Below are positions 20,726-22,814 of a stretch of 59,663 bases of DNA, piece after piece. Made by a program: the position numbers and the translations under genes. Position 1 is the stretch's first letter; every line of letters begins with the position of its first letter. Below the pieces are notes generated by a model. It ran no database searches and was not told the origin of the DNA. It was given only the letters and a program-made list of their open reading frames with translations. Origin of the DNA: Bacteroidota bacterium (GTDB taxonomy: Bacteria; Bacteroidota; Bacteroidia; Bacteroidales; UBA10428); contig QKEH01000001.1 in NCBI GenBank assembly GCA_003252385.1, positions 1-59,663 of the forward strand, read 5' to 3'.

Positions 20726-20783
20726 TTACCCCTTCCTTGTTTCAATCTTTTTGGCTATCTTTTTAAGCAAATTGCTATCGGCC

Positions 20784-22220
20784 ATGTACAAAAGATTGCG
20801 GGAATTTCAACGAAAACAAATTATCTCCTTCCTCACAAAAAGCGACCCGGACAAACTCGTGGCGACTGGCTACAAAAAAGTAATCCCTGCATTCCGTAAA
20901 CTGGCCAAACAGTCGCCAGCTTATCGCACATTTCTGAAAGAACACCGTATTGATGCTTCTTCCATCCAAACTCTTGATCAATTTACAGGTAAAGTTCCCA
21001 TACTGAAGAAAGAAGACTTTTTCACCCCATATTCTGCAGAACAACTGCTGGGCAAACAGACAAAGTCAGTCAAACTGACCATGACCAGTTCCGGATTCTC
21101 TAATGCCTTTGCCTATGGTTTTCTCTCCAAAAAAGTGCTAAACAAAACGCCGCTGGGTGTAGACACTACTTTTGATTACTGGTTCGATATCAGTAACCGG
21201 AAAAGTTTTTTCATCAACTGTATGCCTATGGGGTTGCATGTAGAAACATCGTTACCCATGGCCGAAGTGAGTGTACGAAGCGATATGGCCATCGCGTTGT
21301 TAAAAAAGGTAGCACCCATTTACGACCAAACCATTCTGGTTGGCGACCCGCATTTTGTAAAAAAACTGGTGGAAGAAGGTTGTGCCGCAGGAATACCCTG
21401 GGGCAAGCTCAAAGTGAATATTATTACCGGACAGGACTGGCTTCCGGAAAACCTGAGAAGCTATCTGTCCGAACGTTTGGAGATTAACCTGAATGAAAAC
21501 CAACATCGGGGTATTTACGCCACCATGGGCATGACCGAAATGGGATTGAACGTTTTTCACGAATCGTTCCATACCGTGCAATTACGCCGTAACCTGATGA
21601 AGGATTCCGAATTGGCCAAACGTTTCGGCTGTTTGCCCAATGTGCCGCCCTGCATTTTTCATTATTATCCGTTTAGAACGTATATCGAAACAGCACAGAC
21701 CGCAATGGGACTCTCCGAGTTAGTATTCACCACGCTGGATCAAGACTCCCTGCTGCCCATGGTACGGTACGCTACCGGCGATACCGGCAGCATTGTGTCG
21801 TACCAGGAATTGGCGACTCAATTGAGTGAAAATTATTCTCAAATCATTCCCGATCTGAAACTCCCCTTGGGCTTCGTGCACGGCAGGGTTCCTACAGTTC
21901 AGCAAACTCTGCGCACAGAAACAATTAAGGAAGGCCTCTATGCCAACCCTGAAGTAGTCCCTATGATAACCGGTCTGTTTGGATTGAACCTAAAGCATGG
22001 CGTTTCCGAAATACATATCCACCTTAATCCAAATACAAAATCCTCCGAGACCATCAGGAAGAAAATTCACCACGCAATTTCCCAATATGTCTCAGAGGAT
22101 TTCTCGGTAGTACTAATTCCCTACTATAATTTCACCGAAGCGCTTTCGCTAAACTACGAGCAAAAACTGGCAGTGCGCTATAACCTAAGCCACCCGGATA
22201 CGAACGGGAGCCAGAATTGA
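20784..22220 (+). CDS. PaaK/LuxE-like adenylate-forming enzyme
   Basis: 478 residues from the ATG at 20784; an in-frame TTG lies 33 bp upstream but adds a poor leader. Motifs typical of acyl-adenylating enzymes of the phenylacetate-CoA ligase/LuxE group are present: TMTSSGFSNAFAYG (phosphate-binding loop), YATMGMTEMG (adenine pocket) and MVRYATGDTGSI (core ATP motif with Asp), with Lys in NYEQKLAVRY near the end. It would activate a carboxylic or fatty acid with ATP; the acid and acceptor are unknown. The coding end overlaps the end of the LuxI-fold acyltransferase gene on the other strand by 36 bp. It lies 58 bp after the DUF4105 gene. Confidence 0.7.
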   Translation: MYKRLREFQRKQIISFLTKSDPDKLVATGYKKVIPAFRKLAKQSPAYRTFLKEHRIDASSIQTLDQFTGKVPILKKEDFFTPYSAEQLLGKQTKSVKLTMTSSGFSNAFAYGFLSKKVLNKTPLGVDTTFDYWFDISNRKSFFINCMPMGLHVETSLPMAEVSVRSDMAIALLKKVAPIYDQTILVGDPHFVKKLVEEGCAAGIPWGKLKVNIITGQDWLPENLRSYLSERLEINLNENQHRGIYATMGMTEMGLNVFHESFHTVQLRRNLMKDSELAKRFGCLPNVPPCIFHYYPFRTYIETAQTAMGLSELVFTTLDQDSLLPMVRYATGDTGSIVSYQELATQLSENYSQIIPDLKLPLGFVHGRVPTVQQTLRTETIKEGLYANPEVVPMITGLFGLNLKHGVSEIHIHLNPNTKSSETIRKKIHHAISQYVSEDFSVVLIPYYNFTEALSLNYEQKLAVRYNLSHPDTNGSQN

Positions 22221-22814
22221 TTCGGTTTGATAGTATTCCCACAGATACGAATTGGTGGATTTCCACTGTTTCTCGCACTGCTCAATATTGCAAATGGAGG
22301 CCATGGTAAACCCGCCAAAATACATCGAAGGGGTTCCTACGGCATTAAGATAGAAACCAAAACGCCCCAACAAACGCACCAGCGAAGGTTCCAGTACAAA
22401 AATCCAGTTTTCGAGACCCATTTCTTTGCTGATCTGATAGGTTGCACGAAGAATACCATGCGTTACTTCAATTCGATTTTTGGTCGCGGTTACAATCAGC
22501 CTTGATAATTCAGCTACATGAACCGCTTTCCTGTAGCCACGGAACAACCCGGGATGGCTCTCGTAAGGAAGTTTGGAGTAATATTCGGCGGGTAGTATGC
22601 GCATATTTCCCACAACCTGGTAATTATCATCCATGGCAATTACATGGATTGCTTTGGAATCGTAGGAATCGGTCTCCATGCCATTGGGATAATCAGCGGA
22701 GGACATCCATCCCTTTTCTTCGCAGTACACTTTAAAACGTAAGCGATAGCTGCTTTGAAGTTCGTAATCGGAATCGGCTACTTTAAAGTACAGTTCTTTA
22801 CCAATGGTTTCCAT
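22185..22814 (-). CDS. LuxI-fold / PEP-CTERM-associated-type GNAT N-acyltransferase
   Basis: 209 residues. The sequence fits the autoinducer-synthase branch of the GNAT fold, which includes LuxI, FeeM-type N-acyl amino acid synthases and the exosortase-associated acyltransferases. The conserved LuxI residues can all be placed with correct spacing: Arg26, Tyr30 (LuxI Phe28), Trp36, Asp49 and Asp52 in ETDSYD, Arg72 in GNMRIL, and Glu102/Arg105 in AELSRLIV. An acyl donor and an amine acceptor are therefore expected. The product is unknown; AHL, N-acyl amino acid or another lipid signal are all possible. Its 3' end overlaps the convergent acyl-activating enzyme gene, and 290 bp of AT-rich DNA lies upstream. 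Confidence 0.75.
   Translation of the reverse strand: METIGKELYFKVADSDYELQSSYRLRFKVYCEEKGWMSSADYPNGMETDSYDSKAIHVIAMDDNYQVVGNMRILPAEYYSKLPYESHPGLFRGYRKAVHVAELSRLIVTATKNRIEVTHGILRATYQISKEMGLENWIFVLEPSLVRLLGRFGFYLNAVGTPSMYFGGFTMASICNIEQCEKQWKSTNSYLWEYYQTESILAPVRIRVA

Follow-up and report, generated by a model that had tools for sequence, protein, structure and literature searches.

The window analysed here, a stretch of 59,663 nucleotides from a bacterium of the order Bacteroidales (Bacteroidota; contig QKEH01000001.1), carries two convergent genes, one for an enzyme resembling acid-adenylating proteins, hereafter called the ligase, and one for a GNAT of the LuxI fold. Both frames are intact, and overlap tail to tail exactly as a first-pass annotation of this DNA had described (Table 1). 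The start of the ligase is less sharply defined, as a longer frame from a TTG at 20751 is also possible, and the N-termini of the relatives leave the choice between ATG and TTG unsettled. The pair is flanked on one side by genes for SOD-like, DUF1571 and Lnb-like proteins, and on the other by a block which we take, from sequence likeness, to encode MurI, two OmpH proteins, BamA and UppS in this order. The same block is found in the related genomes G001, G002 and G004.

Table 1. Location in the window of the two genes and of the residues discussed in the text
Feature	Position	Strand	Remarks
Ligase reading frame	20784..22220	+	ATG at 20784, stop ends at 22220; 478 aa
GNAT reading frame	22185..22814	-	ATG at 22814, stop ends at 22185; 209 aa
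Tail-to-tail overlap of the two frames	22185..22220	.	36 bp
Ligase SSG loop, residues 102-104	21087-21095	+	core motif
Ligase E252	21537-21539	+	core residue
Ligase D333	21780-21782	+	core residue
Ligase G367-R368	21882-21887	+	core residues
Ligase K461	22164-22166	+	C-terminal, invariant
GNAT R26	22737-22739	-	
GNAT W36	22707-22709	-	
GNAT D49	22668-22670	-	
GNAT D52	22659-22661	-	
GNAT R72	22599-22601	-	
GNAT E102	22509-22511	-	
GNAT R105	22500-22502	-	

The ligase escapes the common profile collections. Ten members of the family compared with Pfam gave either no match or chance matches only, and the LuxE model was absent from the matches of all ten up to E 1. No NCBIfam cut-off was reached by the window ligase, all matches being far below; TIGR02155, the model of PaaK phenylacetate-CoA ligases, scored 18 bits against an equivalog cut-off of 646.3. 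Compared alone with solved structures, the window ligase gave only chance-level matches, BT_0428 (E 0.026) ranking below influenza polymerase chains. A profile of the ten members retrieved BT_0428 (E 3.4e-11), PaaK2 (E 2.6e-10), ClxA (E 2.2e-8) and, at a distance, the LuxE chain 7xc6_E (E 1.1e-6). With the predicted structure (mean pLDDT 83.0, below 50 at residues 452-478) the best Foldseek matches were BT_0428 (E 2.0e-18) and PaaK1 (E 2.8e-17); matches to these two, AjiA1, NatL2 and ClxA ranged from 2e-18 to 2e-16, at 14-18% identity. The PaaK/LuxE likeness proposed by the first-pass annotation is thus established by the structural match and the ten-member profile, though Pfam is blind to it. 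The ligase is probably an acid-adenylating enzyme of the PaaK/LuxE fold, member of a family still without a name, and probably activates an organic acid.

Fold and core motifs are shared with PaaK1, BT_0428, NatL2, ClxA and LuxE, and the SSG loop, E252, D333, R368 and K461 are kept in all 12 aligned pair ligases. The pair ligases differ from PaaK-type enzymes not only in sequence and in escaping Pfam, but also at the second position downstream of the GR motif, where an Asp is expected, presumably the hinge Asp of the A8 motif in such enzymes. This residue is found in none of the 12 pair ligases, and in 8 of 11 relatives outside their clade. Since it is missing in every member, and the C-terminus is modelled poorly, the formation of a thioester is uncertain, and K461 is only a candidate for the adenylation lysine. 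In a tree of 23 ligases, built after trimming the over-extended L120 and L121 frames to the matched part, the 12 pair ligases make up one clade (support 96/96).

The GNAT exceeds the gathering cut-off of PF00765 (41.7 bits, cut-off 24) and the cut-offs of PF13444 (39.9 bits, 22.4) and TIGR03694 (122.5 bits, 111.95). The latter, which describes exosortase-associated acyltransferases, is the only NCBIfam model passed; all 11 pair GNATs that were aligned match it at E <= 1e-3. The FeeM model PF21926 scores just below its gathering cut-off (24.9 bits, 27), and reaches 45.7 bits in the GNAT of the gammaproteobacterial pair L026. Scores with the NCBIfam models of acyl-homoserine lactone (AHL) synthases are far below the thresholds (NF010408, 31.6 of 292; NF052393, 29.1 of 250). 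The AlphaFold2 model (mean pLDDT 85.5) matches TofI, LasI and BjaI first among solved structures (E about 2e-11), RpaI with E 9.5e-10 and FeeM with E 1.3e-7, and the LuxI fold formerly assigned to the protein is borne out by this structure-based search. By sequence, the nearest solved structures are those of AHL synthases, headed by the CoA-dependent BjaI and including RpaI and MesI; these three are among the nearest by fold as well. A FeeM-type GNAT, above the PF21926 cut-off, has been also identified in G008 (L014:11288-11938), a member of the window's genus in which the ligase was not found; the gene next to it presumably encodes a short-chain dehydrogenase-like protein.

Seven residues, R26, W36, D49, D52, R72, E102 and R105, had been taken as evidence for LuxI-type catalysis. 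All are present, and are invariant in the six Bacteroidota pair GNATs, the window's included, but six of them also occur in exosortase-type and other acyltransferases. In an alignment of 66 rows these six were found in all pair GNATs (13/13), plasmid-borne AHL synthases (5/5, excluding I_L125, translated in the wrong frame), exosortase-type GNATs (25/25) and other Bacteroidota rows with a full N-terminus (14/14), weak TIGR03694 matches which we assume to be mostly OlsB-like. The last count leaves out the truncated B_L068, L070, L073 and L076, the partial B_L072, and B_G008, which lacks E102 and R105; N_L127, assigned to no group, has N at D49. Loci L086-L115 (30 in number, 29 above the TIGR03694 cut-off and L115 below) contributed one GNAT each, and five of them are not counted as exosortase-type (L097, L107, L109 and L114 were dropped, L108 was kept as X_G099b). 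Among the seven residues only W36, judged from the alignment, leans towards AHL synthases, being W in 5/5 of these, 2/25 exosortase-type GNATs and 1/14 other Bacteroidota rows. In pair GNATs position 36 is W in 9/13 and F in three gammaproteobacterial proteins, and the residue of P_G833 is ambiguous. C31 is found in 13/13 pair GNATs and 23/25 exosortase-type GNATs, and in 0/5 AHL synthases. The signature R, D, D, R, E-S-R plus C31 is common to pair GNATs, TIGR03694 acyltransferases and NasY/FeeM.

The GNAT tree includes 57 of the 66 rows (six short or partial Bacteroidota rows, two over-long exosortase-type frames and the L125 frame were dropped); the bootstrap is not fully settled, and several branches are long. 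The five AHL synthases form a clade of their own (100/93), which contains no pair GNATs. The latter fall into three well-supported branches, and lie with a second G099 copy on one side of a branch that is not firm (69/94). A topology uniting the six Bacteroidota pair GNATs with AHL synthases is not rejected (p-AU 0.35). A different Bacteroidota protein, B_L069 (L069:1159-1737, genome G450), carries W36, is adjoined by a second GNAT frame, and stands beside the AHL-synthase clade (99/91, long branch); possibly, it is a closer relative of AHL synthases than the window GNAT.

All 12 genomes in which the ligase clade was found encode a LuxI-fold GNAT, and the two genes are adjacent in 11. The pair spans Bacteroidota, Gammaproteobacteria and Nitrospirota. 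Co-occurrence in other genomes, which the first-pass annotation had proposed to survey, is therefore supported, and neither of the two results named beforehand as fatal, lack of co-occurrence or a fold other than LuxI, was found. A set of 99 genomes, comprising the window's own and those of relatives in its genus, family and order, gave GNAT matches in seven and ligase matches in eight. Strong matches to either gene come from the same six genomes (G000, the window's own, G001, G002, G004, G014 and G015), the remaining ones (GNAT in G008, ligase in G090 and G074) being weak. The six genomes belong to one family, so their joint profile does not represent six independent events. Genes are adjacent and convergent in five of them, with a 36-bp overlap in the window and gaps of 8, 33, 90 and 355 bp in the others; in G014 they lie on different contigs. 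Scanning GTDB contigs with the six Bacteroidota ligases gave nine loci, five of which were the known Bacteroidota relatives. The four new ones, in Gammaproteobacteria (L026, L027) and Nitrospirota (L029, L030), all have an adjacent LuxI-like GNAT. Of four ligase matches in 198 Nitrospirota genomes, two (L117, L118) were strong and new, again with the GNAT adjacent. A neighbouring GNAT hence accompanies 6/6 strong loci located outside the family, all found by ligase sequence alone. The order of the genes varies among phyla. They are convergent in Bacteroidota; on one strand, the GNAT precedes the ligase in Gammaproteobacteria, and follows it in Nitrospirota, where the frames overlap in L029 and L030. 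Because the pairing is conserved, chance can be excluded as its source, and genetic linkage supports a functional link between the two genes. At L027:1873-3647 (genome G100) two tandem pair-type GNATs are followed by one ligase, and this by a protein with a PEP-CTERM-like tail; a possible outcome of the tandem arrangement is head-group diversification.

Among other TIGR03694 loci and more distant ligases the association was not found. Of 30 gammaproteobacterial TIGR03694 loci only L109, which is the L027 genome itself, has a ligase within about 1.5 kb; once the two pair genomes are subtracted, the count is 0/28 (flanks of three cut by contig ends). No ligase was near the GNAT at 19 weaker Bacteroidota loci. 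The ligase profile matched 12 of 229 gammaproteobacterial genomes, the two strong matches being the pair genomes, and no GNAT lies within about 1.5 kb of the other ten (109-170 bits; four flanks cut short). These ten (L131-L140), which include the distant ligases of L131-L137 (135-170 bits), were considered as family members and discarded, having no pair-type GNAT nearby; they were not placed in the tree. Six of the ten genomes encode a TIGR03694 protein above cut-off, though away from the ligase, compared with 21 of the 217 others (Fisher p 2.5e-4, with no correction for kinship). In a sample of 395 Bacteroidota genomes, a ligase above 175 bits is confined to the window's genome, weaker ones being matched in 28 others, and the TIGR03694 cut-off is likewise exceeded nowhere else; at E <= 1e-3 the model is matched in 64 of the 395, the window's own included. 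In 228 genomes of the order a strong ligase is found only in the window's, G090 having a weak one. In all, no pair-type GNAT was detected near 16 distant ligases, these ten and six others, all below 175 bits (about 1.5 kb inspected on each side for most), nor any GNAT with 18 further weak Bacteroidota matches (L045-L062). G143, G905 (Nitrospirota, 149 bits), G090, G074, Nonomuraea L120 and Gemmatirosa L121, the six others, were likewise rejected as family members, having no pair-type GNAT nearby and falling outside the pair clade in the tree. Next to the G143 ligase (L063:8597-11215, 164 bits) is a gene for an Acg-type nitroreductase-fold protein, an arrangement which possibly represents a different ligase-containing pathway.

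Some pairs have further neighbours. An Amidohydro_2 protein (PF04909) adjoins the ligase in G002, G004, G014 and G015, where it is cut off by the contig start, and is one gene away from it in G001. Among its relatives of solved structure are 5-carboxyvanillate and gamma-resorcylate decarboxylases; the closest one is uncharacterised. No match to the amidohydrolase was found in the window's genome, and it is also absent from the gammaproteobacterial and Nitrospirota pair loci; it was therefore discarded as an obligatory third part, and seems to be accessory. Between amidohydrolase and ligase, G001 has a gene for a B12-binding radical SAM protein that exceeds the cut-off of the RiPP C-methyltransferase model TIGR03975 (L010:12545-14500); it is seen at this pair locus only. 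In G014 a gene for a ThiF-family adenylyltransferase directly precedes amidohydrolase and ligase (L064:9410-11060); judged by eye, no ThiF-like gene is seen in the gene lists of the other pair loci. Partners of the oxazolone type, ThiF plus nitroreductase, were dropped, the former being seen in G014 and the latter beside the distant G143 ligase. A LuxR-type receptor was dismissed as partner too, since the domain PF03472 was detected in 0/12 pair genomes (the E. coli control was positive; bins are incomplete). Both gammaproteobacterial pair loci have a neighbour protein ending in a VPEPATL-type tail, which we take to be PEP-CTERM. The exosortase model PF09721, the only one used, was matched in one of ten pair genomes tested (G015, 27 bits, on a contig of 6354 bases), and not in the window's genome. 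An exosortase partner is hence not supported there, a weak rejection, because PF09721 was not matched either in the two genomes whose pair loci encode PEP-CTERM-like proteins; low sensitivity of the search, or incomplete bins, may account for this.

The history of the two genes is not the same. Identity of the flanking BamA-like protein is 81% between G001 and G004, followed by G002 (74%) and the window (66-68%), and the GNAT tree groups G001, G004 and G002 in the same way. In the ligase tree G001 and G002 share a divergent type, and G004 groups with the window. As read from these sequence comparisons, the ligase at this site has been exchanged for one of another type, next to GNATs that are closely related to each other. 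Such an exchange would be expected if the acyl part of the product were determined by the ligase. The GNAT tree also places the window GNAT outside G014 and G015 (97/92), unlike the expectation from kinship, so the history of the GNAT itself may not be simple.

Activation of an acid followed by its transfer to an amine would be the most economical function for the pair, and we favour, with a probability of roughly 0.6, a two-enzyme N-acylation module yielding an N-acyl amino acid or amine. The ligase would use ATP to adenylate one particular free carboxylic acid, and the activated acyl group would be loaded onto CoA or an acyl carrier. With this group the GNAT would then acylate an amino acid, or an acceptor derived from one, on its amino group, to give a signal, a surfactant or a lipid precursor. 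In the relatives, the amidohydrolase may supply or trim the acid. This chemistry is deduced from the folds and the conserved residues. The order in which the reactions take place and the passage through a thioester are putative, and so are the identities of acid and acceptor and the role of the module. A surface-helix motif of LuxI proteins is treated as a guide to ACP versus CoA donors in PMC4234381. Against the module stand the split contigs of G014, the missing Asp of the ligase, and the lack of the amidohydrolase in the window's genome. Moreover, the genes are convergent in Bacteroidota, and therefore not part of one transcript.

The latter arrangement and the G014 split could also mean that the genes are neighbours without joint function, held together by shared inheritance or co-transfer, and four genus members do carry the pair beside the same murI-like block. 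This is very improbable, given that linkage is kept across three phyla and three gene orders, that it has two genomic surroundings within the family (G015 differs), and that it survived the exchange of ligases. The pair might otherwise synthesise genuine acyl- or aryl-homoserine lactones, from an acyl-CoA made by the ligase and with S-adenosylmethionine as the acceptor for the GNAT, as RpaI does with p-coumaroyl-CoA. The PF00765 score, the nearest solved relatives, the W36 bias and the tolerated union with AHL synthases in the tree all go in this direction. Yet PF03472 was not found in the pair genomes, the scores with AHL-synthase models are low, position 36 is F in three gammaproteobacterial pair GNATs, and AHL synthases cluster apart. 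We consider this reading unlikely, and the view that the catalytic residues point specifically to an AHL synthase is not supported, six of the seven being shared with other acyltransferases, and TIGR03694 alone among the NCBIfam models being passed. With RpaI and p-coumaroyl-CoA ligase the pair has in common the idea that an unusual acyl-CoA is provided by a ligase; CoA-dependent AHL synthases rely on cellular CoA ligases, and that of RpaI is a general cellular one, according to PMC10470506. The window ligase, in contrast, belongs to a separate family with genetic linkage to the GNAT.

The TIGR03694 matches, the tailed proteins beside both gammaproteobacterial pairs, and earlier reports that genes for N-acyl amino acid synthases are linked to PEP-CTERM genes (referred to in PMC4897644 and PMC7293339) would fit a role in a surface system, PEP-CTERM/exosortase or polysaccharide, where an N-acyl amino acid or an acylated amino sugar anchors or modifies surface material. 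We regard this as improbable, as PF09721 hit a single pair genome, not the window's, with the caveat on sensitivity and bins given above, and as TIGR03694 exceeds its cut-off in no other sampled Bacteroidota genome. Pair GNATs further differ from TIGR03694 acyltransferases in lying on separate branches, and in having an adjacent ligase. The N-acylation module is also comparable to the Tyz/Oxz acyl-oxazolone pathways, in which TyzA, an N-acyltransferase of the LuxI/FeeM fold, acts together with ThiF-like and nitroreductase enzymes on an N-acyl amino acid (PMC10404671); the ThiF homologue of G014 recalls the cyclases TyzB and OxzB. In contrast to the pair, the assays of TyzA used acyl-CoA, and the main text of the same source nowhere contains the term acyl-CoA ligase.

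The ligases may even be an unrecognised family of adenylating enzymes dedicated to LuxI-fold acyltransferases, passing the acyl-adenylate directly to the GNAT, so that N-acyl signals or lipids of a new class would be produced in uncultured Bacteroidota, Nitrospirota and Gammaproteobacteria. We hold this rather doubtful, though the A8 hinge Asp is missing in every member, and a hand-over without a free CoA or ACP thioester may thus occur. In literature searches, which left most subscription journals outside coverage, no paper was found on this ligase-GNAT pairing, nor one joining a phenylacetate-CoA ligase with an exosortase; publication elsewhere is possible. What is new here is a genetically linked ligase family that Pfam does not see, and the finding flags it. 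If direct hand-over takes place, a different ligase type next to an unchanged GNAT would alter the acyl part of the product. The pair itself provides a handle for genome mining of N-acyl compounds in Bacteroidota and Nitrospirota.
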